Below, piece by piece: positions 39,394-59,845 of a stretch of DNA of 64,000 bases; positions within the stretch are counted from its first letter, which is position 1, and every line of letters starts with the position of its first letter. Location: assembly GCA_964017185.1 (NCBI GenBank), contig OZ024876.1:12959726-13023725 (forward strand), read 5' to 3'. Made by a program: the position numbers and the translations under genes. Origin of the DNA: Rugalucina vietnamica (lineage: Eukaryota > Mollusca > Bivalvia > Lucinida > Lucinidae). The notes beneath the pieces were generated by a model. It worked only from the letters and a program-made list of their open reading frames with translations. It made no database searches and was not told the origin of the DNA.

Positions 39394-42301
39394 GGTGCAT
39401 TCCTTTACCGGAATGGAACGTAATGGGCCTAATTACCGGAATGGACTACCGGAATGGACATTTATATGTGTCTTGGGGCACTTTATATTAGCTCACCTGA
39501 GCCGAAGGCTCACAGGTGAGCTTATAGGATAGGCAGGCATCCGTCGTCGTCCGTCCGTCGTCCGTCCGTCCGTCCGTCCGTCGTCCGTCCACAATTTCAA
39601 AGAAGAATATTTCTGAAGCTAGTAGGCCGATCTTGATCAAATTTAATGTGAACCATAATTGGGTTGGGGGATTGATGGTATTAGGTTTTGGAGCAGATTG
39701 TATCAAAATTGTGGTTTCCATGGCAACAGATAGGTCCCATAGACTTACAATGGGAAAAACTAAAAAAATCTTCTTCTCTGAAACCACTAGGCCCACAGCT
39801 TTGATATTTGGTATGTAGCAATGGCTAATGGTCCTCTACATAAATTGTTCCAGTCATGCCCCTGGGGTCAAATTTGGCCACGCCCCGGGGGGTCGATAGT
39901 CTCCATAGACTTACTATGGGAAAAAAATAAAAAATCTTCTTCTCTGAAACCACAGGGCCCACAGCTTTGATATTTGGTATGTGGCAATGGCTAATGGTCT
40001 TCTATATAAATTGTGCCAGCCATGCCCCTGGGGTCAAATTTGGCCACGCCCCGGGGGTGTATAGTTTCCATAGACTTTCAATTGGAAAATCTAAAAAAAA
40101 ATCTTCTTCTCTGAAACCACTAGGCCCACAGCTTTGATATTTGGTATGTAGCAATGGCTAATGGTCCTCTACAAAAATTGTGCCATTCATGCCCCTGGGG
40201 TCAAATTTGGCCACGCCCCGAGGGTTGATAGTCTCCATAGACTTACTATGGGAAAAAAAATAAAAAATCTTCTTCTCTGAAACCACAGGGCCCACAGCTT
40301 TGATATTTTGTAGGTGGCAATGGCTAATGGTCCTCTACATAAATTGTGCCAATCATGCCCCTGGGGTCAAATTTGGCCACGCCCCGGGAGTTGATAGTCT
40401 CCATAGACCTACAATAGGAAAAAAACTAAAAAAATCTTCTTCTCTGAAACCACTAGGCCAACAGCTTTGATATTTGGTATGTAGCAATAACTAATAGTCT
40501 TCTACATAAATTGTGCCATTAATGCCCCTGGGGTCAAATTTGGCCACGCCCCGGGGGTTGATAGTCTCCATAGACTTACTATGGGAAAAAAATAAAAAAA
40601 TCTTCTTCTCTGAAACCACAGGGCCCACAGCTTTGATATTTTGTAGGTGGCAATGGCTAATTGTCCTCTACATAAATTGTGCCAATCATGCCCCTGGGGT
40701 CAAATTTGGCCACGCCCCGGGGGTCGATAGTCTCCATAGACCTACAATAGGAAAAAAACTAAAAAAATCTTCTTCTCTGAAACCACTAGGCCAACAGCTT
40801 TGATATTTGGTATGTAGCAATGGCTAATGGTCCTCTACATAAATTGTGCCATTCATGCCCCTGGGGTCAAATTTGGCCACGCCCCGGGAGTTGATAGTCT
40901 CCATAGACTTACTATGGGAAAAAAAAATAAAAAATCTTCTCTGAAACCACAGGGCCCACAGCTTTGATATTTTGTATGTGGCAATGGCTAATTGTCCTCT
41001 ACATAAATTGTGCCAATCATGTCCCCGGGGTCAAATTTGGCCACGCCCCGGGGGTCGATAGTCTCCATAGACCTACAATAGGAAAAACTAAAAAAATCTT
41101 CTTCTCTGAAACCACAGGGCCCACAGCTTTGATATTGGGTATGTAGCAATGGCTAATGGTCCTCTACATTAATTGTGCCATTCATGCCCCTGGGGTCAAA
41201 TTTGGCCACGCCCCGGGGGTTGATAGTCTCCATAGACTTACTATGGGAAAAAAAAAAAAAAATCTTCTCTGAAACCACTAGGCCCACAGCTTTGATATTT
41301 GGTATGTAGCAATGGCTAATGGTCCTCTACATAAATTGTGCCATTCATGCCCCTGGGGTCAAATTTGGCCAGGCCCCGGAGGTTGATAGTCTCAATAGAC
41401 TTGCTATGGGAAAAAAAATCAAAAATCTTCTTCTCTGAAACCACAGGGCACACAGCTTTGATATTTTGTATGTGGCAATGGCTAATGGTCCTCTACATAA
41501 ATTGTGCCAGCCATGCCCCTGGGGTCAAATTTGGCCACGCCCCGGGGGTAGATAGTCTCCATAGACTTACAATGGGAAAAACTAACAAAAATCTTCTTCT
41601 CTGAAACCAAAAGGCCCAGAGCTTCTATATTTTGTATGTAGCAATGTTTGGTAGTCCCCATTATAAATTGTGCCAGTCATGCCCCTGGGTCAAATTTGGC
41701 CATGCCCCAGGGGTCAATAGTGTCCATGCATAGACTTTCATTGGTTGATTCTCAATTAATTTAAATCTCATGAGCTTACAATGTGATAATCTCTCAGGTG
41801 AGCTACAGGACCAATGGTCCTCTAGTTTTAATTTTTTGAAGACAAGATGACCTAGAATATGCAAAGACTGTGATTAGTTGGAGAATAGTGTGGTTTATAT
41901 AACGCAAAATTGTGTTCCAAATGATGGGGTAGAAGCCTAGCTCAAACCCCCTTATACCGGCGCTTGGGTTACTGTCACAGTGCCAACACTTTTTACTCAT
42001 TTTTATTTGCACCTACGATGTAGAATAACCCATGAGATCTCTATTTGATTTCTATCAAAGAATAAAAATAAAACTGGGATCCTTTGAACAATTACTGCAC
42101 CCCAGACCCCACCCCTACTGAGCCACCGCGGCGAGCAATTTTGCAATAGTTAGATGGAAAATATTTTTCGCAAACTACTAATTTGACTTCAAAAGTAATT
42201 CTGTGCATATAAAATGCATTCAAAGTACTCAATGCCACTGAGAAATATCCATTCTGGTAGTCCATTCCGGTAATTAGGCCCATTCCGGTAAAGGAATGCA
42301 C
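39394..42301. mobile_element. iterated-motif TIR transposon (TACCGGAATGG type)
   Basis: The left arm GGTGCATTCCTTTACCGGAA continues with further ACCGGAATGGA words; the right arm at 42246-42301 is its inverse. The flanks CCCTTGTC (39386-39393 and 42302-42309) form an 8-bp target duplication. A Helentron-like copy (39490-41825) is nested inside; without it the element is about 570 bp and has no transposase. Confidence 0.75.
39490..41825 (+). mobile_element. Helentron-like repeat (family 1) with 167-bp tandem array, copy 2
   Basis: Nearly the same length, monomer order and end sequence as the copy at 35908-38246, including the same variant last units (AACCAAAAGG-CCAGAGC). Confidence 0.9.
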
Positions 42302-42952
42302 CCCTTGTCATCGACCATTTAATTAGATCTCCTCCTGACACTTCTTGACCAAATTTCAGGTGAAGCCTCGAACAAATGTGTGTGTGGGTTTATGGTCGAT
42401 TCGCGACCTTCCTGTTCGCACCCTTTACCTGTTCGCTACCTGACATGTTCGCTACCAACGCGTTCGCTACCTGTACATGTTCGAAACCTGACATTTTCGC
42501 TACCTTACATTTTCGCTACCTGAGTTTCTAAAATGTAAATAATAGGTTATAGAAGTGATGGTGAAGTCATATAGATCTATATCATATTCAATTTTGTTTC
42601 ATGAAAATATGTACAACAGAAATTTTATAAACTATATTCATGGTTTAATACACATAAAATAATGATCGGTGAAGCCTAAAAGGGTAATTACAGGTGACAA
42701 TTATTTACATACAAACACTTTACACACACAATGTAGACAATTATAATTATTTATTTTCATAGACAATTAAAAGATGAGATCTGCTGATTGAGGTTATAAT
42801 TTTAGCATAAAATATATTAAATATGTTAAAAAGAAATGTACATTATGATTCTCTTAAAATAAAAAAAACCTTAAAAAACATGAGCAATGATTAAAACATC
42901 TCAAAAAGGAAGAAATGTAATTTAGCATATATTTACTAATATACAGAGAATC

Positions 42953-42955
42953 AAA

Positions 42956-42994
<39 letters not shown>

Positions 42995-42995
42995 A
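42953..42995. repeat. (AAAT)n microsatellite
   Basis: About ten AAAT units. Confidence 0.9.
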
Positions 42996-43123
42996 AACAC
43001 TAAAATATATAGATGGCATTAAAAATGAAATCACGACATTAAAAATGAAATCCATTTTGCAAAGATTAACTTACTATAAAAAGGGAAGAAACGTAATTTA
43101 GCATAAATTACCTTAACTATAAA

Positions 43124-43190
43124 ATGAGCCGCTTCGTGAGAAAATGGGATTAATGCCTATGCGAAAACAAAGGCGCAGTTCAGCTTTGCA
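43124..43190. mobile_element. MITE family P fragment
   Basis: GAGCCGCTTCGTGAGAAAAT and GCGAAAACAAAGGCGCAGTTC. Confidence 0.55.
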
Positions 43191-43642
43191 GTGGGATTTA
43201 CAAGGGTTTACCATTACTCATTAGAACCGCCTCGTCGAGTCGAGTCTAACGTGTATCCACAATCATGTTTGGAGAGACAAATAGTAGAAATATCAAAGAA
43301 AAGAAATCCTATGAAATTTTCAATTTTTTACTCATGAAAAGATATCAAAGTTAAAACATCTTTTAAAGCATAATATTCTAAAACATTCTAAAATCGAATT
43401 ATTTAAAAACCATATTTTTAAAATTTAAAAGTACGACTCATGAGTAGGCTATTAATCAACTGTGAAGTTTGGTAGTGAGTGAATAATTAACGGGGGAAGC
43501 CGCGAAAAACATCGTGGTAGCGAACCGACTAAGGTCGATAAGGTGCGAAAAGGTGAGAAAAATACAGAGTAGCGAACGGACCAATGGGAGGTAGCGAACG
43601 GACTAAGTGCGAACGAACCAGGTCGCGAAAGATCCTGTTACC

Positions 43643-43670
43643 TGTGTGTGTGTGTGTGTGTGTGTGTGTT
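43643..43670. repeat. (TG)n microsatellite
   Basis: About 13 TG units at the right border of the iterated-motif transposon. Confidence 0.9.
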
Positions 43671-43671
43671 T

Positions 43672-43730
43672 AGCTCACCTGAGCCGTAGGTGAACTTATA
43701 CGATAGGCAGACGCCCGTCGTACCTACAAA
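43672..43730 (+). mobile_element. Helentron-like repeat (family 1), 5' end only
   Basis: AGCTCACCTGAGCCGTAGG and ATAGGCAG, truncated after about 60 bp. 43731-44258 holds no recognised gene. Confidence 0.6.
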
Positions 43731-45242
43731 ATCATTGTATGTAGACAAGTTAATTGTCTGTGACTATTCAGACTGGTACAGACTGGCCATATGTATATTC
43801 GAATGGGATTACTTAGACATAATTGGTGTTTCAAAGTTAAAAACATTTTAAAATCTATTGATTTGGGAGAAAAATATACCAGAACCCTTAATACCGACAG
43901 GCGAAGTGCCATCATACTTACCGATAGACGATACTAAAGATAAACTTGTTAAAATATAAAACAATAATGGAGAAACGATATAAAGTCACAAAATAAACTT
44001 TATAAAATTATAAAAACATTATCAAACATGACTTTGATGGCTGAAGAATATGTGACGCTGATGTAACCCCCATTGCCATTTCTCCGGCATTACCGAATTA
44101 GTGTGTGTGCATTCATTAGTGCATGAAGCAAATCTGCACCACTTTCAGATCTTACATCCATGTTTAAAGTGTCTCGTGATAGGCTATCCCAACCCACCGT
44201 ACCATTGGTCTTTTTCTACCAGGTGGATTGAAAAAGAATAAAAAATAGGGCTCTTTTTAGCTCGACTGCACGACGTGCAAAGAGCTATTGTAGTCACCTC
44301 GGTCGTCCGCGTTCCCGTTACCGTTCCTGTCACACTGCGTCAAAGTTTTCTAGAAGTGCACAGCTTGGCAACTACTTATGATAGAGGGTTCAAACTTGGA
44401 CCATAGGTACCTTGGAGGGTTGGCTTTCATTACATGTTATCAGACTCCTGGGTCCATGCCCGGGGGTGGGGCTGGGGGTTAATATCTAGAACACTGTAAA
44501 AAATTGTCTGTACTGCGTCAGAGTTTTCTAGCAGTCCAGATCTTGGCAACTACTTATCAATAAGAGTTCAAACTTGGACCATAGGTACCTTTGGAGGGTT
44601 GGCTTTCATTCCATTGCATCGGATCCCCGGGTTCATGCCAGTGGGTGGGGCTAGAGGTTAAAATCTAGAACATTATTAATAATGGCTTTTCTGTGGTATA
44701 GTATTCTAGAAGTCTATATCTTGAAAACCTTTTATCTGAGGGCTTTCGTACTTGGACCATAGGTACCCTGTAGGATTGAGTTTCATTTCATGGCATCGGA
44801 TCCCTAGGTCCATGCCTAGGGGTGGGGCTAGAGGTTAAAAACTAGAACACTGTAAAAAATGGGTGTACTGCTGTGTAACTTTTACAAAGAGTCTATATCT
44901 TGACAACAATTTATCATAAAGCATTCATACTTCATACACTTTAGGTTCCATGACATCGTACCTCTGGGTCTGAGTCAGGGGGGTGGGGCTAGAGGTCAAA
45001 ATCTAGAACTCTCTGAAAATATTTTTTTCTTTTTTATTTCTACATTAAAACAGCTTAGGAAGATGCTTGGTCATTCATCTTTTAACTTAGTGACACTAAC
45101 TTAGTGTCATGACAGTTACTGTTGGTTGACCTACTTTCCATGGTCCAGTGGTTTTGCCTTATATCTTGACACTCAATAAGTATATTTTCATACTTCTTTC
45201 AGATTATGAGTATGACCAGACCTTTGACCCCAATAAACTTAT

Positions 45243-46023
45243 AGGTCACTGTGACCTAATTTCATGGTTCAGTGATTTTGCCTTATATCTTGACACTCAA
45301 TAAGTATATTACTTCTATCAGATTATGAGTGAGTATGACCAGAGCTTTGACCCCAATATACTTGTAGGTCACTGTGATCTAATTTCACAGTTCAGTGATT
45401 TTACCTTATATCTTGACATTCAATTAGTATATTTTTGTACTTCTTTCAGATTATGAGTTGGTATGACTAGACCTATGTCCTTTGACCCCAATATACTTAT
45501 AGGTCAGTGTGACCTAATTTCATGCTTCAGTGATTTTGCCTTACATCTTGACACTCAATTATTATATTTTCATGCTTCCTTCAGATTATGAGTGAGTATG
45601 AACAGGCCTTTGACCACAGTATACTTATAGGTCACTGTGACCTAATTTCATGGTTCGGTGATTTTGCCTTATATCTTTGCACTCAATTGGTTGATGAACG
45701 TAATTCTTTCACACTATGTTTGTGTATGACAAGACCTTGGACCCTAAAGTAGTCCTAGGTCATTGTGACCTGATTACATGGTTAAGTGATTTTGCCTTTT
45801 ATCTCGGGTTTCTTTTGGTATATGAGCATATTTCTTTCACATTATGTTTGCGTATGACAAGACCTTTGACCCTAAAGTATTCCTGGGTCACTGTGACCTA
45901 ATTCCATGCTTCAGTGACTTGGCCTTATATCTTGACACTCGGTATATTTTCATACGTCTTTATTATTATAAGTAAGTATGATAAAACCTTGGACCCTAAA
46001 GTACCTATAGGTCAGTGTGAGCT
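45243..46023. promoter_or_regulatory. array of ERE-like palindromes in family 2 units
   Basis: Perfect GGTCANNNTGACC cores at 45243, 45501, 45629, 45757 and 45885 (15-bp windows); near-perfect ones at 45366 and 46009. These match the vertebrate estrogen response element. Sequence match only; no evidence of binding. Confidence 0.6.
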
Positions 46024-46132
46024 TATTTCACGGTTCAGTGATTTTGCCTTGTATCTTGGCACTCAGTTGGTGTATTATAACATTCTTCATGTACAATATG
46101 ATTGGGACGTTTAAACCTTCAGTAGTTATAAG

Positions 46133-46641
46133 TGTAACGAACAGCCGAGCCGAGCCACAGAAACCCCGTCGGTGGAAAAGCATGCTCATCCACCAAGGGT
46201 GGTTTACTGCGCTATATACCTAACACTTACTCTAATCACAAAGTTTCGAGTTTCTAATTTGCATATTACTACCCGCTAATATGCCGCTAGTACGTTGCAC
46301 CAACGTATTCTACAAGGGAGACTATCCCGTTACATTACTTCCCCCTCCGAGAAGACTCGCCCCGAGTCTTGGCCTGGGGACTACATGGGTAAGGTAACTC
46401 CGTTCTGGCAGTTGTCATCATCCCACCGCTGCCACCAAATGTAACGTGCAGCCGAGGCAGCCACAGCAAACCCCGTCGGTGGAAAAGCATGCTCATCTAC
46501 CAAGGCTGGTTTACTGCGCTATATACCTAACACTTACTCTAATCACAAAGTTTCGAGTTTCTAATTTGCATATTACTACCCGCTAATATGCCGCTAATAC
46601 GTTGCACCAACGTATTCTACAAGGGAGACTATCCCGTTACA
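46133..46641 (-). mobile_element. TRIM (miniature LTR retrotransposon) with TAAG duplication
   Basis: Two 202-bp LTRs (46133-46334 and 46440-46641) start TGTAACG and end CCCGTTACA; they differ at only about eight positions. The interior is 105 bp. On the minus strand it begins TTTGGTGGCAGCGGTGGGAT, a primer-site-like segment, and ends GGAGGGGGAAGTAA, a polypurine tract. Both flanks are TAAG (46129-46132 and 46642-46645), a 4-bp duplication. No coding capacity, so it depends on another element. Confidence 0.9.
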
Positions 46642-46914
46642 TAAGTTATAGTTAACTGTCATGGTTCAGTGATTTTGTTCTGTATAACATCAAGGCAAAA
46701 AGATGTATGAGCATAATGCTTTGGGTTACAGGTCGAGTTTGGCCCTATGTTTGACAAAGGTCAGAAGCAGTCGAGCATGCTGTCCTGCGACAGCTCTTAT
46801 TTGACTTGGGACTGCTTATAGTATCTAAAATCGTATATTGAAGAATTTTTGTCATAACAATCCAAGACTGAAGCGAGTAAGCTCTATTGAACATTTTTGT
46901 TGGTATTTCTATTG

Positions 46915-46920
46915 TTTATT
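46915..46920 (-). terminator. candidate poly(A) signal
   Basis: TTTATT on the plus strand is AATAAA on the minus strand, about 114 bp beyond the stop codon of the cysteine-rich gene. Confidence 0.4.
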
Positions 46921-47033
46921 TACTTACTTTTTCATGTTTATGATATCACTACAAGAATAATGTTTTTTAGTTTACAGTATTAAGAACGTTGTACAAACAT
47001 GTAGCCGTCCAAGGAAAGCTAATAGCAGTTAAA

Positions 47034-47570
47034 TCATTTCTGTGTGCGCGAATATGAACAAACTCTCTTTTCACAAATCATCTTGTACTTGGGGAAAGCT
47101 GTATTTTGACAGGCATGTCGACACAACCCAGTAGGCGGATCCATTGAGCAAATCTCGCAGATGCTTCTATACCATGAAAATGCCGTTCGGTCACACGAAT
47201 GAATACACATGATTGCTGTGACCGGAGGATTTTCCTCGCATCTCAAGCAAATTTCCATGTATTCTCCGATGAAGGTCGAGTCACATGCATGCACACACAT
47301 CGGCGATGTTGGTGGTGCTCGTTTAGCACATGTTTGACAAATCCTGTCCAGCACTGGTTCCCCAGTAAGGTCGTCGCAAGCAAACGTGCACATCTGGTAA
47401 GTTAGCGGCGGATTTCTGGAACATTTACGACAAAGTGTGGCGTTGTCGGCAAACTGTTGATTGCTGCATGCGCTTACACACTGGTCGCTGGTGTATCTTA
47501 CCGATGAAAATGCGCTGATGGTATTAACCATTACAGAGAAAATGAGAACTTTTGATTCAGCTATCAACAT
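47034..47570 (-). CDS. five-repeat cysteine-rich, probably secreted protein
   Basis: The 178-residue frame begins with a hydrophobic leader (KVLIFSVMVNTISAFSS) that looks like a signal peptide. Five tandem units of about 30 residues follow, of pattern C-x3-C-x11-12-C-x2-C-x3-4-P-P. The first four units end in PP and the fifth has C-x4-C and no PP. All 20 cysteines fall in this pattern, which suggests two disulfides per unit outside the cell. I recognise no named family; a matrix, defence or binding peptide are all possible. On the minus strand GGAATTTTTCAG stands directly before the ATG, an acceptor-like site, so an upstream exon may exist. Codon regularity and repeat conservation argue that it is a real gene. 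Confidence 0.65.
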   Translation of the reverse strand: MLIAESKVLIFSVMVNTISAFSSVRYTSDQCVSACSNQQFADNATLCRKCSRNPPLTYQMCTFACDDLTGEPVLDRICQTCAKRAPPTSPMCVHACDSTFIGEYMEICLRCEENPPVTAIMCIHSCDRTAFSWYRSICEICSMDPPTGLCRHACQNTAFPKYKMICEKRVCSYSRTQK

Positions 47571-48482
47571 CTGAAAAATTCCAAATAGCGTTCAGGAGTG
47601 GCAGTTTAAACATATTTTGTAGTATGACTTTCTGCTTTTCCTTTGAGGTTTCTGTAACATTAAATCCAATTCAAGTGAATATCTACGAAGGCGGGCCTAC
47701 ATATTGATACTCAGGAAGGAGGCGGAATGAAAACTGTACTGTAGCTTCTTGATATTATGGTACAGAGAGCTGTCAACTGATGGTCTGTCATACTGCAAGT
47801 TAATTAAAGGCCTCGTAGAAAAAAATAAGTAAAAACAGCTCGTCTTCGACTCACTTTCATTTACTTATTTTTTCTACTGGGTACTTTAACTATTGCCTTT
47901 TAATGTACAATGGGGTTGGGCTACACGTTCTATCAGCATTAGGTTCATGTGTATAAACATACAGCTGCATATTAAACTTGAGAGACAAGAATATGTCGGC
48001 TTTACACGGGTCGAAAATCTATCAAGTTTCGTTCTTAAAAAATATTTGTTTCGCGTTACACGCCGCATATACAAGATTATTGTGGTCTCTTCATATGATG
48101 TAGAATCGTTTTTTCCATACAGCTTAATTATTACCTTTCAGTAATCCAAAATTATAACGGTGTATTTTGTCTTATGTATTGCTATAATACGAGCTTTTTA
48201 AAGCCTAATCATGATGAAAAAATTTTGATACTGGCTCTTTGAAATGTTATATCATGGTGTTGTGTGGTTAAAAAAAAATCTGCCCTTGTGAGTTTCAGAC
48301 TCAATTTAGCAGCCAAAAAGATAGTTATATCGATAGATTTGATAGGCGCGGTACTAAGGCATGACACCATTTCATCGGTGGGCAATGCTTATCAGACTTT
48401 GTAGATATGCAGGCTTATCTACATACGTGGCGTACATCTTCAGATATAGACAAGTTTAATCACAATATTGTACGCTTACATT
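47571..48482. other. no gene recognised
   Basis: Presumed upstream region of the cysteine-rich gene. An inverted pair AAAAATAAGTAAA and TTTACTTATTTTTTC occurs at 47820-47875. An 83-codon plus-strand frame (47893-48144) has no motif. Confidence 0.4.
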
Positions 48483-48718
48483 TGAGCAGCTGCATGAGAA
48501 AACCAACAATCTCGAATTCCGACCGGGTCTGACACAAACCGACCTGTACAATCAAAAAGGTCAGCTAGAAGTTTGAAACTAGATAAAAGTAGAAGAGCAA
48601 TTGTACTATCCATGTGTCGCAAACAAAGGCGCTGATCAGCTGTGCAGTTACTGCACAGCTGATCTGCGTCTTTGTTTTCGCATATGTAAATTGTTGGTTT
48701 TCTCAAGCGGCGGCTCAT
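48483..48718. mobile_element. palindromic MITE family P
   Basis: Ends GAGCAGCTGCATGAGAAAACC and GGTTTTCTCAAGCGGCGGCTC, centre GCTGTGCAGTTACTGCACAGC. Confidence 0.85.
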
Positions 48719-48899
48719 GAATGATATTGCATGATACCATCCAATGTAAGACAATATGGTAAAACAATACTTTTTGTATCAAAATTACAATAACATGAAG
48801 TTAATGAAACGTGATAAGCCTGGTGTTATTAGATTTTGTATACACTAGGCCTCGCTCATTGGGGCCTAAAGAGCCAACAGCTCAATATGTAAAGGCTTG

Positions 48900-49905
48900 T
48901 GCCTCCAGGCAGCTTTTACGCTACTGATAGTCGTTCGTCTGTCACTAATGAGAAAGACATCATTATTTCATGAATAGGTTCGTGTGTGTTGGTGAGTTTG
49001 ATGGCTGACTAGGCCAATTCTAGCTCTAAACTGTCGGTTGCAAGTAGAGCAAGTCAATGTCATGGAATCAGCTGGTGGCCCATTGGTATTGGCTTTGCGT
49101 TCTCTGCGCTTTCTTTCAGCTTCACAGATTCTCTTTTTATATAGAGAGCTGCTCCTTTGTTGATGAAACCTCGCCACTTTGATCGATCCTGTGCAGTCTG
49201 TTCCCAAGCTCCAACTGGTATGTCAAAATCATTCAGAGCGGCTTTGAGTGTGTCTTTGTAGCGTTTCTTCTGGCCAGCTTGAGAGCGCTTTCCCTCTTGT
49301 AGTTCTCCATAGAAGACTGTCTTTGGGGGTCGCTCATCAGGCATTCTATAATACGGCCAGTCCACCTTAGCTGTGCTTGCTTTAAGACAGTATACATGCT
49401 TTGCATCCCAGCTTTCTTCAGGACCTCCGTGTCTGGAATCTTGTCTTGCTACTTGATTTTTAACAGCTTTCTCAAACAGCTTAAATGGAAATGATTAAGT
49501 CTCTTTGCATGACGATGGTATACTGTCCAGGTCTCACATGCATACAAGAGGGTTGGCAGTACCACAGGCTTGTAGACTTTCAGCTTGGTGTCAAGCTTGA
49601 TTCCATTTCGCACCTTCAGACATTTGCACGGAGTCTTCCAAATGCCACACTGGCTTTTGCAATTCTGGCAGTAACTCATCATCAATATGCAGTGCTTCCC
49701 AGGTAGGTAAATTTATCAACAACTTTCAGTTTTTGTCCATTCACAGTGATGGTTCGTTCATTGTACAGTTTTCCAGGTGCTGGTTGGTGTACAACTTCTG
49801 TCTTTTTTGTGCTGATTGTGAGATCACTGTAAGACTTGATCCATGGCTCTTTGCATTTTTGCCTCTGAGCTGGCAGTCTTATCCATGCCATCTGCATAGA
49901 AAAGC
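48900..49905 (-). pseudogene. LINE (non-LTR retrotransposon) 3' end, frameshifted
   Basis: In transcription order on the minus strand: a reverse-transcriptase segment ([31 protein letters not shown]), a thumb/linker part ([30 protein letters not shown]), KKRYKDTLKAALNDFDI, DRSKWRGFI, and a terminal C2H2 finger (CSTCNRQFRARIGLVSH, then QTHQH). The pieces lie in different frames and the catalytic upstream part is missing, so it is a dead 5'-truncated copy. Domain order fits the widespread invertebrate LINE with a C-terminal zinc finger. Confidence 0.85.
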
Positions 49906-49949: not shown

Positions 49950-50108
49950 GTATATATTCCGCCGGATTACGACGCACCTCGTTTATCCCACGAGTTCGGG
50001 AATCCCTTCACCTATCCCTTCACCACTCCGCAGTGGCAGGATTAATGCCCACCACCAGACATTGATAACCTTAACACATATTTGGATCCTGCCAATGCGG
50101 ATTTCGGC

Positions 50109-50353
50109 GGCCCCCGTGGCCGAGTGGTTAAGGTCGCTGACTTCAGTGCTCTTGATTATTCGATCATCTCACCGATGTGGGTTCGCGCCCCGCACGGGGC
50201 ACGAATTCATATGTGAGACAAGCCATGTTTTGCTTGTGGTTTTTCCCCGTGTACTCCGGTTTTCGCCCCACCTACCGATTGATTCGTCTCGATATGAGTG
50301 AAAACGCTTGAAAGGGACGTAAAACTGAATCAAAAAAAAAAAAAAAAAAAAAA
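50109..50353 (+). mobile_element. full-length tRNA-derived SINE with poly(A)
   Basis: Head GCCCCCGTGGCCGAGTGGTT (A box), B box GGTTCGCGCC at 50179-50188, body TGTACTCCGGTTTTCGCCCC and CTTGAAAGGGACGTAAAACT, and a poly(A) tract of about 24. It has the longest pure tail of the copies here, so it is probably the youngest. Confidence 0.9.
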
Positions 50354-50576
50354 TGCGGATTTCCCTCCCTTGTTCATTAACCTTACCACGTCACTGTTAT
50401 ACCATACTACCCAAAGCCCCCCGCCCCCCCCCCCCCCCGATACAGGATACAGGAAAGCCAGGACACATCAAAACGGTACCTGATTGGAAAACCAGTGTCA
50501 CTGTCCTGAAAAGGCAGAAAACATCATGCTGAACAGTGTTGGTGATAGGGTACGCTACTGATAGGGCATCTGATTA

Positions 50577-50880
50577 TGCACCAGTCATTTGTAACCACGG
50601 CTCCCCCACCTACGGGGAAGGGCGGGGATTATGACTTTCCAGGTTTTCAATGCCCTGTTATAGACACCACCCCAGGCAACAAAATGGGGGTCAAAACCAT
50701 GTTCTTTGCCCGGTCCTTCATAACGGAAAATCACCCTGGGATATGGATCTTAAAAGCAAAACACTGACATTTCCTCTGCACTTCCTGGACAATATATTTA
50801 GTTGTCCCGCACTTTAGCCCGGCTATCCCCGACCCTTCCCCGTAGATGGGAGGAGGGCGTGGTTACAAATGACTGGTGTA
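50577..50880. mobile_element. MITE with CACCAGTCATTTGTAA ends
   Basis: TGCACCAGTCATTTGTAACC and GGTTACAAATGACTGGTGTA are complementary. Same family as 10020-10348. Confidence 0.75.
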
Positions 50881-51076
50881 TTCCCTTTAGTCAACTCGTA
50901 CTTTTTTTTTGGTCAACTCGTACTTTTGAAATAATCTTATATATTTTATGAATATTTATTTGACAAATATGATGTTTTGCATTTTATTGTGCCTTTTCTT
51001 GAAAAAAAAAAACATGTAATCACAAGCACTACATGCATGACATATTTATGCTTTAGTTAATTAAATCATTGACCGT

Positions 51077-51284
51077 GTGAGCAGAATTCTAGCATCAAAA
51101 GAGCAGTTATCTCAGCTCAACAAATGCAAAAGGTGGTTCGTTGATGGGACATTCAAGATCGTTAAACGGCCATTCTACCGGCTCTTCAGTATCCATGGAT
51201 TCATTCACAAAGACGAGCGCGTTAGACAGATACCACTTACGTTTGTTCTGATGACCCGTAGGACTTTGAAGGATTATGAAGAGG
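51077..51284 (+). pseudogene. MULE-type transposase exon fragment
   Basis: The frame reads EQLSQLNKCKRWFVDGTFKI, VKRPFYRLFSIHGFI and PLTFVLMTRRTLKDYEE, ending at a donor-like GAAGAG|GTAAAA. The FVDGTFK segment followed by LF-IHGF and PL-F-LM matches the start of the MULE transposase catalytic core, where the D of DGTF is the first acidic residue. The later catalytic residues are not found downstream, so this is a remnant of the enclosing transposon or of a domesticated gene. Confidence 0.6.
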
Positions 51285-51307
51285 TAAAACATATTCTATA
51301 CTGACCT

Positions 51308-51345
<38 letters not shown>
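51308..51345. repeat. poly(A) run
   Basis: About 37 consecutive A residues. Confidence 0.95.
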
Positions 51346-51347
<2 letters not shown>

Positions 51348-51384
51348 GCCTCAGTCAAGCTGGAAATGTCATACTCATACTGCC

Positions 51385-52350
51385 TTGATTAATAAGTATA
51401 TTTTTCATGTATTGATCATATCTTTTGGTAACATTTTGGACCTTACCGCTAAGCAAATTAGCAGCTTTCCATGCTCACACGCCAAAGCGCGCGCCGTGAC
51501 ATCATGGCACCCCCGTGACGTCAAGGTCGAGTTCGGATGCACTCACCACGTGTCCACCATGTATAATCCTGTTTTATTTAACAGGAAATTGTTTTGATCA
51601 AATAGAACCATCAAGGTCCGCAACGGAACGTTGTGGAGTGAGGTTCCTTAACTAGCTCATCCTTGTGTTAAAAATACATTCGGGTCGAATTAGTTTCCAT
51701 AGGCAACTGTCACTGTGTTACTCAGTCATGTGCTTGATGTACATAATCTTGCATGAACTATATTTTATTTTATTTAGAGATAAATCAATATCATTATACC
51801 TTAGAAACTATTTTTTTAATGTTTTAGCTATAAATTAACTCATTTTAAGGTTGTGTCATCGAATTATTTTAGCAAATTTATCACTCAGCTGTGTGGTATT
51901 ATCATTTTAACGGTTGTAAACTTGCTTGTGCTGGCATTAAAACTTTTTATTTAGAATTAAACATTTTTTATATCTTAGAAAACGCACTTTTAATTTTTGC
52001 AAAACAGTTTTAGCTAGAAACAAATTAATTTTAAAATTGTGCCCTCCAAATTGTTTTATAAAAATAAGATGATTTGTATGATTACTTGCATTACAAATAT
52101 TAGTTTGACATTTTATTAATTTTTGTTTAAACTTCAGTAGAAAATAATGCTAATAAAGCTATTGTTGTACATTTTATGAAGTTGCTTTGATCTTTGTAAC
52201 CAGTTTTGCAAGAAATAAATATATGAATAAATTCTTATTTGCTTTTATGTCTGAAAAACGTAGTCTAACCCCCAACAAAGACTCACTGATTGCTCCATAA
52301 TTGGATACAATTATCTACTCTAATTAAACTCAAGATAACAAAAGGGGTGC
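51385..52350. other. AT-rich transposon interior, no gene seen
   Basis: No second transposase exon was recognised. A TGACGTCA site is at about 51516. Confidence 0.4.
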
Positions 52351-52984
52351 GATTTGACAAAAGTACGACTTGACCAATTATAAAGTACGAGTTGACCAAA
52401 GTATAAAGTACGAGTTGACTAAGGTAAAATGCGGTACGAGTTTTTTTAGTACGAGTCGACCACAGTACGAGAAAAAAAGTACGAGTTGACCAGCACCCAC
52501 TGGTTAACCACTCAGTTCATATAATAATAATAATGATAAAAGTACGGGTTGACCAAAAATAAAGTACGAGTTGACTTAAGGTACGATTTTACGACAGTAC
52601 GAGTTGACCGATTGACCAGGGACGAGTTGGAAAAAGTACAAGTTGACCATAAACCCGGTGGGATATGAAAGCCCCTACCGAGCCGAGCTGCCGAGCCTAG
52701 TATGCCGAGCCAGGTTTTTGACTACTTACTGCGGCTTAAAGCTCGATATCTTCATGGAAAATAATATTCAGAATGATATTAATAACATTCGAAATGATTT
52801 TATATAATTGGAAACCGTTTATGCTATTAAATGAACTCGCCAGTAGAAGCAGGCTACTAGTCAAATAGAAACAATTCCATCACAATTTGTTTTCAAATTA
52901 ATCATAATAAACAATATCTTTAATATCTGTGCCATTTTATCTATTTCAACATGAAACCATTAATTTTTGGTATTTTGAGTTTTA

Positions 52985-53895
52985 ATGTTTTTTGAGAACA
53001 CTCCCGGCTGAAGCAATGATACATCAAAGAGCTCTTTCTTTCTTTGGCAATATTGCTTCGACTACCGGATACATCTGTGGAGAGACAGTTGGCATTGCGG
53101 CAGCTTTCAGTGAAATCCATGAGCAGCTCCAGTTGATATATTGCCATAAAGAAACTATGCATACTGTACGACCTTCCAGAATGTACAGAGATTCTACACA
53201 ATACCCCAACTAAGGCAAAGTGGAGATCTACAGTACACAAAGCAGTTAAGAAATTCTGGTCTGATAGGATTCAAGCTGTGGTTCCATTATACCCAAGTCT
53301 CAAATGGTTAGAGTGTTCTCCTGGACAGTGTGCAAATAACCATCCACTGATAGTGTCATCTGGCAGTCTTCGGGATGTCGCGCATATAGCTGTTCACCTG
53401 AAGATAGTCACCGGAACATACATTCTTCAAACGAATCGGGTAGCTTTTAACCAGAACCAGATTGATCCAACGTGTGTGCTGTGTAAGTCTGGTGTAGAGA
53501 CTCTTAGACATTTCCTGCTGGAGTGTGAAACCTTAAACTGTGTCAGACACCCGAATACTTAGAGACTTGAAGTATTACCTTAAAGACAGTAACATAAACC
53601 TCAGTGACAAAGATACATTGATACAAATCATAACAGACTGTACTGCAGTAGTTGATCCCAAGATTGTTGGTGAAGTTATCGCCCTTGGCAGAAGACTATG
53701 TTATGCGCTACATATAGAGAGATATAAAAGACTGTCAATTATTCCGAGAAGAAAACGTAAAAAGAAGTCAGTATAGAGCGTACGAAGGCCGTGGTGCACC
53801 CAAGCTAATGCACACTTTTTAGAGACTTTTTTAAGCTGTAAATACGGTGATGGTGAATCGTTTTAACCCTGGTTGTAAAGAAAGATAAACAACCA
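52985..53895 (+). pseudogene. LINE 3' end, frameshifted
   Basis: Reverse-transcriptase C-terminal pieces in shifting frames: AEAMIHQRALSFFGNIAS, then RQLALRQLSVKS after a frameshift near 53055, a TGA in place of Trp, KIVTGTYILQTNRVAFNQNQ, DPTCVLCKSGVETLRHFLLE (a zinc-knuckle-like CxxC...H...C segment), and ILRDLKYYLKDSNINLSDKD. It ends near an AACAACCAACCAAT tail. A dead copy of a different LINE from that at 48900. Confidence 0.8.
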
Positions 53896-54571
53896 ACCAA
53901 TGGCGATTACAAGTCAAAAACCTGGCTCGGCAGGGTCTTCTTCTTCTTCTTGTATCGTAGTGTTGATTGATTGATAGATATTTATTCGGTAAAATCAACA
54001 CATACATACATACATATATAGAAACATAAAAAGTATAAAGCACATTGCCTATCACAGTTAATTGTTATGAATAAATTAAATATATATAAAGACATTTTGA
54101 AAGACACTATTTATAAATCAATCTAAAATGTATAAATAAACATTTTTGAAAAACACTTTTTATAAATTAATTTAAAAAATATAAATATACATTTTTGAAA
54201 GACGTCACTGTATAAAAATAGTTCTGGGGGAAAATACGTTGCTAAAAATAACAAGTTAAAGAGGCAAGTAATAAAAAAATATCACAGCATAATCATGTCT
54301 CACACTCCCGGACCAAAGGAGTGTAGCAAAGCGTCACGTCAAGCTTCTTCGCCTACACCCACCGTCTCTGGAAGTGACCAAGCCTGGTGCCGCCAGCAGA
54401 ACGGTGCCCAAGTGTATGAGACATGAAAAAAAAATGCATAAAATGCATAAAATATATTGTTATGTATGCGTGTTGAAATAACCCAGGATAGCCCATGAAA
54501 GCCCAAAGGCTTATTTCCTTGTTCCGCCGTTGACTTGTCGGCGAACCCATAACCGGTAAAATAGTGGGGAT
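53896..54571. other. no gene seen
   Basis: AT-rich with a CTTCTTCTTCTTCTT run at 53939 and CATACATACATACATA near 54002. Confidence 0.5.
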
Positions 54572-54577
54572 TTTATT
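54572..54577 (-). terminator. candidate poly(A) signal for the MYND gene
   Basis: TTTATT on the plus strand (AATAAA on the minus) lies about 184 bp beyond the MYND stop codon. Confidence 0.3.
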
Positions 54578-54760
54578 GGATAGAAGTTTGTTATTTCAAA
54601 CCACTGTACACTGTTAGTCTGACACTTGTTGCAAAATTCTGGTGAATAAAAGTCTGAACACACGTGAATAAAACACTTAAAACTGAGTTTGATTTTTTTC
54701 ACATGTGAATAAAACACTTAAAACTGTGAGTTTTTACAAAGTTTCTTTCAATCCGGGAAG

Positions 54761-55065
54761 TCACTGAACTATGATTGCTTTACACAGTTCCCTGTGAGAA
54801 GGCCAATCAGCTGCTTGGCACTTCTTGGAGCAATATCTGGCAAACTTGCATCCAGTGCACTTTTTGAATTCCTCTTCTTCGTCACAATTTGAACAAATAT
54901 CTGGTGGTTAAATGTCCGGTTCAATGTCTCTTTTAATACTGCTCGGCTCGGCATGGTTGTTGTTGTTAGTAGACCCCTCCTCTTCCAGGAGAACCACGTT
55001 GATACGTGTGAATTTCTCATATTTAATACTTTGAGGCTTAATACTTGCACCCCCACCGATTTCAA
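54761..55065 (-). CDS. MYND zinc-finger protein, terminal exon(s), one in-frame stop
   Basis: On the minus strand the frame ending at the TGA complement at 54761-54763 reads DICSNCDEEEEFKKCTGC, KFARYCSKKCQAADW, PSHRELCKAIIVQ. This is a complete MYND finger: C-x2-C-x8-C-x2-C-x5-C-x3-C-x7-H-x3-C. MYND domains bind two zincs and proline-rich partners and are common in chromatin and signalling proteins. The same frame is open upstream from 55065 (GGGASIKPQSIKYEKFTRIN, VVLLEEEGSTNNNHAEPSSI) apart from one TAA just before PPDIC (about 54906). So this may be a pseudogene, two exons split there, or a sequence error. Longer frames on the same strand are shadows. Confidence 0.65.
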
Positions 55066-55923
55066 GCTCTTATATTGTTCTTGCTATCAAGTGTTTTCCC
55101 ATACACCACGATAAACATGCAACTAACTTCAACTTATGTGGGCAGAGACCTCTAATTATCGTTCCCATAGACTCCCATTGTAATTTGCCCCAAAACAATA
55201 CTCATTCTTAGGCTTCACAGCTTATAGTAGACCCCGACACATTCAGAAGACGAGAGATCGCCCCAGGCCGTGTACAAGTGCAGCAAAAAAAAAAAAATAG
55301 GGCGTTAGCCAGCATTCAAGGACGGTACTTTTCGCTGTTTAGGGACACCCCAAAATCGCTCGACAATGAAAAAATAATTATTCAAAAATAACTACATCCG
55401 CAATGTGGTCATAGCATGGCAAAACAGCAGCCGATTAAATAGAAATATATAGCAAAATATTCAAGAACGACCATACTATCATGTGACAAAAGACATTTGA
55501 TAGATACGCATTTAAGACCAATGGTAGGTAGCGTTACATCTTAAATTTGCCGCGGTAGATCCTGCCCACACTTCGGGCCAATCACAGGCAACGTTACATT
55601 TACTGGTCTCTGTCCATGTACACTTGTATATACAAGTTCGTAACAGTTCAGTTTTCACAAAGGCTTTCACGCCTCACCCATTTGCTACCCACGTTACAGT
55701 TGTGGTTATAGTTATATATGAAAGAGTTATTCCTCATCTTTTTTGAAGGTAATAGTTCTTCCTGAAGCCTGAACATAATTAGTTGAGAGTATTCCTGTTT
55801 GATCTTTCATAGAATCATTTCAATGTTTTAATTGACTACAGTGGAATTGGGTTACATTTTCTACATCTACATCTACATCTATACGTTGAACCGTCATGCT
55901 TGACTATTACTCATGCTTGACTA
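55066..55923. other. upstream of the MYND exon; no gene seen
   Basis: A CCAATCACAGG segment (CCAAT box on the plus strand) lies near 55579, and CTACATCTACATCTACATCT is a short microsatellite at 55862. No coding exon is recognised on either strand. Confidence 0.35.
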
Positions 55924-55932
55924 TGACCACAG

Positions 55933-56048
55933 TAGTCTGGCGGGTCAGCCGTCAAAATGAATTTTTGATAACTGATTAAATTTTATCATTTTGACAAAAT
56001 GAGCCACTGGGTATGATACTTCATTTTGACGGCTGACCAGTCAGACTA
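55933..56048. mobile_element. 116-bp MITE with 9-bp target duplication
   Basis: The ends TAGTCTGGCGGGTCAGCCGT and ACGGCTGACCAGTCAGACTA are inverted; TGACCACAG flanks both sides (55924-55932 and 56049-56057). GCCGTCAAAATGA extends the arms. Confidence 0.8.
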
Positions 56049-56057
56049 TGACCACAG

Positions 56058-56408
56058 ATCTGAATCTGAATAGTTTACTTTTGACACGCCAAATGACATT
56101 ATTTCACCAGGGGGTTCGGATGGGGGGAAATTAGTTCCTTGAACGCACGAGTGAAGCGAACTTGGACACGCAGTCATCAGGGAGGTCATTCCAGTCCCTG
56201 ATAGTCTGTGGAAAGAAACTACTTTTGTAAGCTTCTTTGCTAGCTGAAGGTATCTGAAAAGCCAAAGAGTGTTGATTTCTACAACGCCTATACAGATACT
56301 TGGGGTTACTGTTTAGACTTTTTTTTCAAAAGCTCATACTTGTACTTTTTTTTCAAAACTTACAATTATATTTTTTATCGCATCTGCTTATTATCCGCAC
56401 GGCTTTTT
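56058..56408. other. no gene seen
   Basis: GAATGCACGA/GTCATTCCAGTCCCTGATAG-like words suggest old LINE 3' sequence, but no frame supports this. Confidence 0.3.
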
Positions 56409-58562
56409 AGCTCACCTGAGCCGAAGGCTCACAAGGTGAGCTTATAGGATGGCCATGATCCGGCGTCCGTCCGTCCGTCCGTCGTCCGTCCGTCCGTCGT
56501 CCGTCCGTCCGTCGTCCACAATTTCAAAGATCTTCTTCTCTGAAACCGCTTGGCCGATCTAGTTGAAATTTTATGTGGAGCCTCCTTGGGTAGTGGCATT
56601 TCAAGTTTGTTCACGAAATCCAGGTCACATGACCAAGATGGCCGCCACGCCCATATATGGTAAAAACCCTTCAAAAATCTTCTTCTCCAGAACCGGTGGG
56701 TCGATTTCCACGAAACTTGGTATGTAGCATTTGGGACTTCAGCCCATCATAGTTTGATAAAATGATGACCCTTGGATTACCTTGACCTATTTTACGGCAA
56801 GGTCAAATTTGGAAACATAAGCTTTTACATGGGAAAAAGTGAAAACTATGGATTTTTTGAAAACTATTGCAGCCTGAGGCCTGAAAAGTGGTAGATGCAA
56901 ACAACTAATGGAGTAGATGAAGGTATGTGATTAATATAGGTCAAGGTCATCTCTTGACCTTGGCCAGTCTATTGTCCATACACACTTTTCAAAGATCTTC
57001 TTCTCTGAAACTGCTAGGCCAATCAAAGTGAAATTTTATGTGGAGCATCCATGGGTAGCGGAGACGAAAGTTTGATCGCGGAATCCAGGTCACATGACCA
57101 AGATGGCCGCCACGCCCATATATGGTAAAAAACACTCAAAAATCTTCTTTTCCAGAACCGGTGGGCCGATTTCCACGAAACTTGGTATGTAGCATCAAGG
57201 ACCTCAGCCCATCATAGTTTGATAAAATGATTACCCTTGGATGACCTTGACCTATTTAACGGCAAGGTCAAATTTGGAAACATAGGCTTTTACATAGGAA
57301 AAAGTGAAAACTATGGATTTTTTGAAAACTATTGCAGCCTGAGGCCTGAAAAGTGGTAGATGCAAACAACTAATGGAGTAGATGAAGGTATATGATTAAT
57401 ATAGGTCAAGGTCATCTCTTGACCTTGGCCAGTCTATTGTCCATACACACTTTACAAAGATCTTCTTCTCTGAAACTGCGTGGCCAATCAAAGTGAAATT
57501 TTATGTGGAGCATCCATGGGTAGGGGAGACGAAAGTTTGATCGCGAAATCCAGGTCACATGACCAAGATGGCCGCCACACCCATATATGGTAAAAAGCAC
57601 TCAAAAATCTTCTTTTCCAGAACCGGTGGGCCGATTTCCACGAAACTTAGTATGTAGCATCAAGGACCTCAGCCCATCATAGTTTGATAAAATGATGACC
57701 CTAGGATGACCTTGACCTATTTTACGGCAAGGTCAAATTTGGAAACATAGGCTTTTACATAGGAAGAAGTGAAAACTGTGGATTTTTTGAAAACTATTGC
57801 AGCCTGAGGCCTAAAAAGTGGTAGATGCAAACAACTAATGGAGTAGATGGAGGTATGTGATTAATATAGGTCAAGGTCATCTCTTGACCTTGGCCAGTCT
57901 GTTGTCCATACACACTTTTCAAAGATCTTCTTCTCTGAAACTGCTTGGCAAATCAAAGTGAAATTTTATGTGGAGCATCCATGGGTAGGGGAGACAAAAG
58001 TTTGATCGCGAAATCCAGGTCACATGACCAAGATGGCCGCCACACCCATATATGGTAAAAACCTTTCAAAAATCTTCTTCTCCAGAACCGGCAGGCCAAT
58101 TTTCATGAAACTTGGTATGTAGCATTTGGGACTCCAGCCCATCATAGTTTGTTGAAATGATGACCCTAAGATGACCTTGACCTCTTTTACGGCAAGGTCA
58201 ATTTTGGAAACATAGGCTTTCACATGGGAAAAGGCGAAAACAAACTGTTGCAGCCTGAGACCTGAAAGTTGCTAGATGCAGACAACTAATGGAGTCAATG
58301 AAGGTAAGTAATTAATGAAGGCCAAGGTCATGTCGTGACCTTGGCCCAAGGTCATTTAAATATCAAAATTAAAATTATGGTTTTCTCAGAAATCACTGGG
58401 TTTGGAAACTATTGCAGCCTGAGACCTGAAACTTTGCAGATGCAGACAACTTATGAAGTCAATGAAGGTGTGTGAGTATTCAAGGTCAAGGTCATTTCAT
58501 TATGACTTAATACTCCAAGATCAGGCTTCAGGTGAGCGTTCTCAGGACCAATGGTCCTCTGG
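56409..58562 (+). mobile_element. Helentron-like repeat (family 1), complete
   Basis: AGCTCACCTGAGCCGAAGG start, a CCGTCCGTCCGTCGT run, four units of about 465 bp with GGTCACATGACCAAGATGG and CCATATATGG, and the end TTCAGGTGAGCGTTCTCAGG, ACCAATGGTCCTCTGG|T. Confidence 0.9.
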
Positions 58563-59098
58563 TATTACATTTGAAGCAGGTATGTGGCTACATTTGTCGA
58601 AATAAATGGCGACTAATGTGCTTGGTCGTGTCAACACACTACACAGTAGCCATGTTGTTGTTCTTGATGTAACTGTTAAAGACCGAAAATATCCGAAAAT
58701 CAGCGCGGACAAATTCTCGTAACGAAATGGTTTTGACTTTTGATAAAAACCGGAATCGTTGAACAGGGTCGGTCGCCGACTTTTTTTTTTTTTTTTTTTT
58801 CTGAGCACTAAAAAAGTTGCAGTCGGCGCAGATTTTGACCAGTCGGTCGGGAAATTGGAAATATAACATTTTTTTTAAGCCTTACATAAGTGATTGCTTA
58901 TCAGTTTTTCTAATGCTTTCTATGTATTCTAGAAATGTTTTTTCTAATTGTAAAAGTTCAGGACTAATGCAGAAAAGCTAAATGAAGAAAAAAATACAAG
59001 TATAAGTTTCGTGTTTTTTTTTTTTTAAAAAAAAAGTACAAGTATAAGCTTTTTGAAAAGTCTAAAATGTAACCCCAAGTATCTGTGATTTTGACTGG
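58563..59098. other. no gene seen
   Basis: Poly(T) at about 58780-58800 and an AAAAAAAA/TTTTTTTT-rich stretch at 59016-59038. The open frames here depend on these runs. Confidence 0.5.
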
Positions 59099-59107
59099 AC
59101 TGTGGAC

Positions 59108-59845
59108 GGCTGAGGCTATCCGCACAACGGTCGTGCTGATAAGCGGCGTTATCCGCACGACGGTCGTGCCGATAAGCGGCGTTATCGGCCCGACCGTCGT
59201 GCGGATAGCCAATGCTACAGGTTTTGGCTATCGGCACGACGGGACTATAAGATTTTCGAATAAGCATACGTATGCATTGAACTATTAATTTGTCATTACA
59301 TAGATTGATTATGTGTTTATCTATTAAAATGTATTCAAAATTAACATTTTTTATTAATTATGAATAAGAAAACTAATCCAGCTGATTTAAACTGAATCAC
59401 AGTAGATTTCTAACAGCGGAGAAAAATATAACAATTGCATTTTTTTTTAATTGTGTTACTGAAATGTTTCCATACTGCATTGTTAAAATAAAAGGCTGTT
59501 TATTCTTTTGGATTACCACATTATTTTATTATTTAGTTTAAGATAATTACTCTCATTTATGCTTACGCATGACTGATTATTACAGGTAAATTCACAGGTA
59601 GGCCAATTTCAGCAAAATAACAATTTTGTTAATCAAAAAGTGAAAAATTCCTGCATTTGTAATATCATGTGTCAGTTTTGAAGCCAGTCTGTAATATTTA
59701 TCAACTTAAAATGTATCCACTTCTGAAATTTTTTAACATTTAGATATCGATTTCCCTGTCGTGCGGATAACACCGCTTATCCGCACGACGGTCGTGCCGA
59801 TAAGCAGCGTTATCGGCACGACCGTCGTGCGGATAGCCAGTGTCG
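59108..59845. mobile_element. iterated-motif TIR transposon (TATCCGCACGAC type)
   Basis: The left arm (GGCTGAGGCTATCCGCAC, to about 59215) and right arm (from about 59757, ending GCGGATAGCCAGTGTCG) are made of alternating TATCCGCACGAC / GTCGTGCCGATA words. ACTGTGGAC flanks both ends (59099-59107 and 59846-59854), a 9-bp duplication as in Mutator-like elements. The AT-rich interior has no coding. Confidence 0.8.

Follow-up and report, generated by a model that had tools for sequence, protein, structure and literature searches.

Five elements lie in the 64-kb window (the whole stretch of DNA analysed), each with a short word of its own iterated towards its ends (Table 1). Element A proper is about 570–600 bp long and is split by a 2.3 kb nested repeat that is foreign to it. 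The nested repeat holds about 12 units of 166 bp (TRF) and shares 96.7% identity over 2323 columns with a copy at 35912-38226; the following 27 bp match too. Within the window no second copy of any of the five elements was seen, and their boundaries and words are therefore unreplicated.

Table 1. Elements A–E and features within them. Words were counted over whole elements with at most 2 mismatches for 11–12 bp words (A, C, D) and at most 1 for 7–9 bp words (B, E), against 300 shuffles. Arm scores are for the left arm aligned to the inverted right arm.
Feature	Coordinates	Strand	Word or description	Word copies (shuffles: mean; max)	Word orientation (left; right)	Arm score (shuffle max)	Flanking duplication
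Element A	39394..42302		Word TACCGGAATGG; terminal repeats GGTGCATTCCTTTACCGG...; interrupted by nested repeat	6 (0.73; 4)	3 forward; 3 reverse	89 (23), arms 39394-39484 and 42222-42302	CCTTGTC, 7 bp if the repeats are symmetric; 8 bp requires an asymmetry of one base (end at 42301)
Nested repeat within A	39494..41804 (right border perhaps ~41831)
Element B	42386..43642		Word TTCGCTACC; left terminus GGGTTTATGGTC; right terminus (inverted) GGTAACAGG	10 (0.24; 2)	6 forward; 4 reverse	39 (28)	TGTGTGTGT, 9 bp
Left terminus of B, 12 bp	42386..42397	+	Identical to right terminus of D
Element C	59108..59844		Word TATCCGCACGAC within a nearly self-inverse 33-bp unit	12 (0.07; 2)	4 forward and 3 reverse; 2 forward and 3 reverse	105 (22)	GACTGTGGAC, 10 bp as bounded here, alternatively 9 bp
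Element D	50884..52656		Word TACGAGTTGACC; left array short, right array long	11 (0.11; 2)	2 reverse; 9 forward	81 (37)	None; at most 4 bp even with 8 bp slack
Possible MULE transposase exon fragment in D	51065..51283	+	Donor-like 3' end GAG/GTAAAA, splice site read by eye
Right terminus of D, 12 bp	52645..52656	-	GGGTTTATGGTC, common to B
Element E	4201..5547		Word GGGACCA, on the outer side of a ~270-bp terminal repeat	17, 4 of them interior (2.78; 9)	5:1; 1:6 (mostly opposite)	281 (28), arms 4194-4471 and 5281-5553	TTTGCATAG, 9 bp

Word arrays and inverted ends

The words are far commoner in all five elements than in shuffled DNA and are gathered at the element ends, in agreement with the earlier note. 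At the same stringency, scattered matches occur in the remaining ~60–63 kb (6 for A, 10 for B, 2 each for C and D, 134 for E), and the one exact copy of any word outside the elements is of E's. The 7-bp word of E is thus common in its own right and is set apart solely by its clustering, with 13 copies in the two ends. A blind scan for k-mers that cluster first in one orientation and further on in the other, with 20 shuffled windows as control, recovered all five elements at k=7 (5 of 35 merged groups), four at k=8 (C missed; 4 of 13) and A, B and D at k=9 (3 of 6). The k-mers numbered 154 against 0–4 in shuffled windows at k=7, 66 against 0 (except one window with 2) at k=8, and 38 against 0 at k=9.

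The remaining groups of the scan are other repeats or chance, and include two further groups at 29006-30226 and 54095-56351 (k=8). A group with CAAGGTCA (25962-27214 and 57242-58481) was rejected, as it consists of tandem repeats of 465-bp period and not of word-array ends, and another (39799-43343) pairs the nested repeat with B.

Opposite orientation of the words at the two ends, proposed for every element, is strict in A, B and D and predominant in E, but is not found in C, which has both orientations at both ends because its 33-bp unit is the word plus a near-inverse of the word. The ends themselves are inverted repeats in that the left arm aligned to the inverted right arm beats 200 of 200 single-base shuffles in each of A–E, although the outermost bases are unaligned in B and C. 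The alignment is weakest in B, whose left and right termini are unlike each other, and the left end of D best fits an internal stretch of its right array (52516-52581) and not its right terminus. The design is real in that words cluster at inverted-repeat ends (5 of 5), but it is not uniform: C is near-palindromic, and D is without a duplication and its arrays are lopsided.

The uneven copy numbers (2 versus 9 in D) would also fit arrays that are slippage by-products in long terminal repeats and play no part in transposition, and the tandem repeats in the TIR of Galileo F are described as expanding, contracting and differing between the two ends of one copy. We think such an origin unlikely, as the words keep their orientation and sequence over irregular spacing (word starts in D are 22 to 63 bp apart), which simple slippage does not predict, and two repeat-borne Galileo sites are reported to bind its transposase domain.

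The words could also be targets of a TE-encoded regulator with an anti-silencing function, such as VANC of the Arabidopsis VANDALs, and not of a transposase. In favour of this, CpG is enriched in three of the arrays, with observed/expected of 1.46–1.68 in B, C and D where the window as a whole has 0.58. VANC is reported to bind short motifs in tandem arrays that differ between VANDAL families and co-evolve with the protein (PMC5735166), and VANDAL is listed as a MULE group. This is nonetheless a highly improbable reading of A–E: the plant motifs are described in introns and upstream of genes, not in inverted termini, and serve anti-silencing and not transposition (PMC5735166); the arrays of E are without CpG and those of A reach 0.68–1.05; the interiors of B (1.0) and D (0.87) also lie above the window; and a second gene was not found in the scanned frames.

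Array patterns of A, C, D and E have no match in viral_contigs. Arrays of TTCGCTACC, the word of B, matched eight stretches there, all rejected as relatives from about 150 bp on each side of the match. In six (L002, L003, L004, L006, L007 and L008) the match falls within an open frame that encodes repeats of Gly-Ser-Glu or Ser-Pro type. L005 is a repeat of 18-bp period, with one stop in its best frame, and the 22-bp tandem repeat of L001 has no open frame.

Target duplications and the terminus common to B and D

Duplications of 8 or 9 bp had been attributed to the elements. Relative to the 8–10 bp range of MULEs, those of E (9 bp) and C (9–10 bp) are clear; that of A is 7 or 8 bp, that of B (9 bp) is weak because it lies inside a TG run (a microsatellite), and D has none. 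Among random placements with exact boundaries, 14 of 6,000 gave a duplication of at least 7 bp. The 7-bp form in A would presumably also suit the P/Galileo type.

The left end of B and the right end of D have the same 12 bp, GGGTTTATGGTC, but different words, a detail that the earlier note does not mention. In the window this sequence occurs in just two places at 0–1 mismatch; eight more at 2 mismatches are all in 166-bp tandem repeats. The inner 4 of the 12 bp also belong to the outermost word of D (52637-52648). A shared terminus of at least 12 bp arose in 2 of 20,000 sets of shuffled termini and in 193 of 20,000 sets of random segments, figures that concern a single pair noticed after the fact. 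This pair is the one case that supports the proposal that words diverge while the architecture stays fixed; common descent of the five is not shown, because no transposase match turned up in those parts of A, B, C and E that were scanned. B and D could be sister families of MULEs in which the cleavage terminus was retained while the whole word array was replaced, end recognition being modular, but we hold this to be quite doubtful.

A possible MULE-like exon in D and the probable class of the elements

The earlier note assigned a MULE-type transposase exon to one element. D does have a match to PF10551, but below threshold (E 0.081, 0.088 and 0.044; 13.7–14.7 bits, about half the Pfam cut-off of 27.6). 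Over 24,736 models, E-values of 0.044–0.088 correspond to about 2–4 per million for that one model, which is the family named beforehand, albeit from the same residues. None of three hand-scrambled controls matched anything. Against the assignment, unrelated families reach matches of this size here as well, with five of nine other frames best at E 0.058–0.086 to families without evident link, and the exon itself hits a hypothetical-protein model of NCBIfam at E 0.012, with 14 bits where the cut-off is 578. A longer read-through of its frame gave no match (D was scanned on plus-strand frames), none of 20 pattern stretches in viral_contigs and none of 89 in genome_contigs was confirmed as a relative, and PDB sequences gave no match at E up to 10. 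D is too short for the N-terminal part of a transposase, where FLYWCH would sit. The word of D contains TTGACC, the plant WRKY W-box; with five words and any motif open to comparison, the likeness is weak. Six-frame Pfam scans found no transposase in E or in the interiors of A (right part), B and C, and the frames that were scanned gave neither a P nor a THAP match, an absence that says little in gutted elements.

Inverted terminal repeats composed of short iterated repeats, the foldback-type structure, are present in A, B, D and E, and in C with its nearly self-inverse unit; a terminal motif followed by subterminal repeats, a Phantom/Muta trait, is seen in A, B, E and the right end of D. We consider it probable that A–E are non-autonomous, decayed foldback-type DNA transposons of the MULE superfamily, near the Phantom/Muta/Tm1 group, a judgement that covers the whole explanation, namely class, superfamily, docking on the arrays and mobilisation in trans.

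Foldback-like ends might instead have had independent origins in different superfamilies (MULE in the case of D, perhaps P-type or hAT in that of others), with the shared design answering a common functional need and not marking one lineage. Such structure is reported as convergent between the P-type Galileo and the MULE FARE in the Tm1 discussion (PMC3169594) and in that of Galileo; the differing duplication lengths (7–8, 9 and 9–10 bp), the nearly self-inverse unit of C and the restriction of the coding trace, itself weak, to D are all consistent with it. The 12-bp terminus common to B and D speaks against convergence, as do the termini as drawn, of which nine of ten start with G and eight with GG or GA (boundaries drawn by eye), and the duplications of C and E suit MULEs. 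We find convergence somewhat unlikely.

Known word-array ends and a proposed docking model

The statement that no named group has this property does not stand: Muta, Tm1, Tetris (PMC4079207) and, as cited by the papers on these, Phantom/Foldback all have it, and with the architecture already known in other animals, the five elements mostly add a new sighting. Of the MULE families with long TIRs in Aedes aegypti, 10 of 12 are reported to have 9–15 bp subterminal tandem repeats, and 8–9 bp duplications are reported in 14 of 14 families. Muta1, which that paper classes among type 2 Foldback elements, combines a 10-bp terminal motif with nine copies of a 12-bp subterminal repeat (PMC5225508). Muta resembles A–E, by description and not by sequence, in its short terminal motif followed by a 9–15 bp repeat array inside the TIR, its 8–9 bp duplications, and its many non-autonomous derivatives of variable array length and interior. 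It differs in that Muta1 and Muta5 have intact multi-exon transposases, with FLYWCH predicted in 13 of 14 families, whereas here there is one weak exon fragment; a nearly self-inverse unit like that of C is not described for Muta in the excerpt used.

Tm1 of Meloidogyne has outer motifs A1, A2 and B and then 1–9 copies of a ~14 bp motif, with unequal ends, 9-bp duplications and a MITE-like majority, and one copy is reported without duplications and with a truncated TIR, as D may be (PMC3169594). Its word is described as nearly the same in two Meloidogyne species, in contrast to five different words in 64 kb here, and its purine-rich motif D and histone-hairpin members, as described, are unlike A–E. 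Phantom and FB, known to us via citing papers, have FB-like or subterminal inverted repeats, as A–E do, and also a MULE transposase and, where given, 8–10 bp duplications, which A–E may share. A literature search that included parts of PMC10294476 brought up no foldback MULEs of this word-array kind from molluscs or bivalves, and we do not claim their absence from print.

It is reasonable to predict that the words are transposase-binding arrays, because analogous binding is shown in Galileo of Drosophila, where transposase binds sites inside the TIR; these lie beyond a ~40 bp terminus that different families have in common, and two of the sites are in direct repeats (PMC3688188). The same paper, of 2013, gives the question of whether Foldback/Phantom repeats act as binding sites as untested (PMC3688188). 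Galileo also has a conserved ~40 bp end and a family-specific inner TIR with THAP sites (PMC3688188, PMC3573991), much as the model below would have it, but it belongs to the P superfamily, the TIR described for Galileo-G is 1.2 kb in length and holds four long direct repeats, and the sites shown or tested number three, against the dense arrays of short words here.

In the docking model, each family would have a short outer terminus, mostly starting with G[GA], as a would-be cleavage site, followed by its own array of a 7–13 bp word. The array would provide several docking sites for the DNA-binding domain of the transposase, a short site gaining specificity by repetition, and each family would depend for its mobility on a transposase supplied in trans from another locus, whose action leaves duplications of about 8–10 bp. 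The words may turn over together through slippage or unequal exchange while the terminus stays constant.

Were B and D indeed sisters, the ends in their lineage would combine a constant catalytic terminus with an address array that can be exchanged and that evolves in step with the DNA-binding domain of the transposase, and the window would catch word replacement inside one lineage. If the pair holds genome-wide, it would offer a natural test of how the recognition of ends by transposase changes, namely whether a new word comes with a new DNA-binding domain while the cleavage end remains constant.

Word arrays in the inverted ends

The window is AT-rich (38.5% G+C), eukaryotic-looking and crowded with repeats, and an earlier note described in it five transposons of a single design, here A to E, each with its own short word arrayed at inverted ends. 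The arrays are real in the main, as shown by shuffled controls, a word-blind scan and alignment of the arms (the left and inverted right terminal repeats). All results here refer to a single copy per element. With mismatches allowed and 300 dinucleotide shuffles as the control, the count inside the elements was 6 copies in A (shuffle mean 0.73, maximum 4), 10 in B (0.24, 2), 12 in C (0.07, 2), 11 in D (0.11, 2) and 17 in E (2.78, 9). Scattered matches at equal stringency in the ~60–63 kb outside the elements number 6, 10, 2, 2 and 134 respectively, and for E it is therefore the clustering that counts. The word-blind scan, which sought k-mers that form a cluster in one orientation followed by a cluster in the other, found 154, 66 and 38 k-mers at k=7, 8 and 9, against 0–4, 0 (once 2) and 0 in 20 shuffled windows; it regained all five words at k=7, four at k=8 and three at k=9, among 35, 13 and six merged groups respectively. 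Left arm and inverted right arm align better than 200 of 200 shuffles in every element. The words were also said to lie in opposite orientation at the two ends; C departs from this, having both orientations at both ends because its 33 bp repeat unit holds the word and a near-inverse of it.

The B, C and D arrays have a CpG observed/expected of 1.46–1.68, versus 0.58 for the window and 0.68–1.05 for the arrays of A; the E arrays are without CpG, and the interiors of B and D have values of 1.0 and 0.87. A sixth inverted-repeat structure has paired CAAGATGGC words, spaced ~150–190 bp apart, that run forward in the left arm and in reverse in the right one; its arms score 176 versus a shuffle maximum of 33, and its right end adjoins a different repeat starting AGCTCACC.

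Coordinates of the elements and associated features (window positions)
Feature	Position	Remarks
A	39394-42302	11-12 bp word; right end corrected (symmetric)
B	42386-43642	7-9 bp word; start corrected
C	59108-59844	11-12 bp word
D	50884-52656	11-12 bp word; both boundaries corrected
E	4201-5547	word GGGACCA
Candidate MULE exon in D	51065-51283	followed by GTAAAA donor-like site; Pfam PF10551 match
Sixth inverted-repeat structure	30600-32779	
Tandem-unit carrier	35912-38226	
Tandem-unit carrier	39494-41804	within A
23 bp tandem copies	39355-39400	just outside A left end
Dispersed-repeat fragments	43119-43340	inside B
185-aa open frame	47034-47591	minus strand

Boundaries and target duplications

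The earlier note proposed target duplications of 8–9 bp. E has 9 bp; B has 9 bp, but its TGTGTGTGT sits in a TG run; C has 10 bp at the boundaries used, or 9 bp; A has 7 bp when its terminal repeats are kept symmetric, and reaches 8 bp only when one end gives up a base; and none was found at the flanks of D. Duplications of at least 7 bp arise by chance in 14 of 6,000 random placements with boundaries fixed, 40 of 6,000 with 3 bp slack and 50 of 1,500 with 8 bp slack. In B and C, the two ends do not align at their outermost bases. The left end of D aligns best with an inner stretch of the right array, so this element may be truncated on that side.

A nested 2.3 kb repeat, of which the window has a second, 97% identical copy, interrupts A; without the repeat, A measures ~570–600 bp. 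Both copies of the repeat carry about twelve 166 bp tandem units, start AGCTCACCTGAGC and include a CCGTCGTCC microsatellite. Beside A, two 23 bp tandem copies (CTGTCRTACCCTTGTCGGTGCAT) repeat its target duplication and first 7 bp, possibly a trace of faulty insertion or excision. The fragments inside B come from a different family of dispersed repeats, present several times in the window, and are probably a nested insertion.

A possible coding trace in D

One element was reported to hold a MULE-type transposase exon. The candidate in D matches the Pfam MULE model (E 0.081 for the full piece, 0.088 and 0.044 for two trimmed versions) at 13.7–14.7 bits, below the cut-off of 27.6, and three hand-scrambled versions of the peptide gave no matches. 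In its favour, the earlier note had already named this family, though from the same residues, and the chance of such a match to one named model is a few in a million. Three results speak against it: five of the nine other frames searched alongside gave best E values of 0.058–0.086 to families with no obvious connection, the exon also matches an NCBIfam hypothetical-protein model (E 0.012), and a longer read-through of its frame has no match. These background and NCBIfam matches lower the confidence in the MULE identity, which is likely but short of shown. No transposase appeared when E, B, C and the right-hand part of A were scanned in six frames; the scan of D was confined to plus-strand frames. 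Only ~180 bp separate the D left end from the MULE-like fragment. An N-terminal DNA-binding region would not fit there, so the word and the binding domain are not comparable in D. Elsewhere, the 185-aa open frame has a cysteine-rich repeat pattern and nothing above threshold in Pfam.

Known systems and a terminus common to B and D

Contrary to the earlier note, named groups with this property exist: the same architecture is established in the Aedes aegypti Muta families (PMC5225508), Meloidogyne Tm1 (PMC3169594), Tetris (PMC4079207), Phantom and FB (as cited in PMC3169594 and PMC3688188) and, by convergence, Galileo (PMC3573991). In Aedes aegypti, 10 of 12 long-TIR MULE families have 9–15 bp subterminal repeats and 8–9 bp duplications (PMC5225508), close to the design given in the earlier note. 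A–E form a cluster of decayed foldback-type elements that are probably MULEs and differ in their words; their architecture is already known, and the elements themselves are new examples.

In the probable mechanism, cleavage would take place at the outermost few bases, and the word array would offer several docking sites to the DNA-binding domain of the transposase. A–E would be mobilised in trans, and their arrays could be replaced as a block, as is reported for VANC targets (PMC5735166). In Galileo, transposase sites lie within the TIR, past a ~40 bp terminus kept between families; the G-family domain binds the D. ananassae TIR but binds those of the K family only weakly and shows no binding to N-family TIRs (PMC3688188).

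The first 12 bp from outside in, GGGTTTATGGTC, are identical in the B left and D right termini, after which the sequences diverge. These are the only sites in the window at 0–1 mismatch; eight more, in the 166 bp tandem repeats, appear at two mismatches. Because the last four bases (GGTC) are also part of the outermost D word, only 8 of the 12 bp lie strictly outside both arrays. A shared run of at least 12 among ten 24 bp termini occurred in 2 of 20,000 shuffled sets, but in 193 of 20,000 when random stretches of the window (its repeats included) were drawn instead, values that apply to a match spotted before testing, with termini drawn with it in view. This terminus is the sole point of the case that merits follow-up, and it suggests, short of proving it, a relationship between B and D as families that share a terminus but differ in their word.
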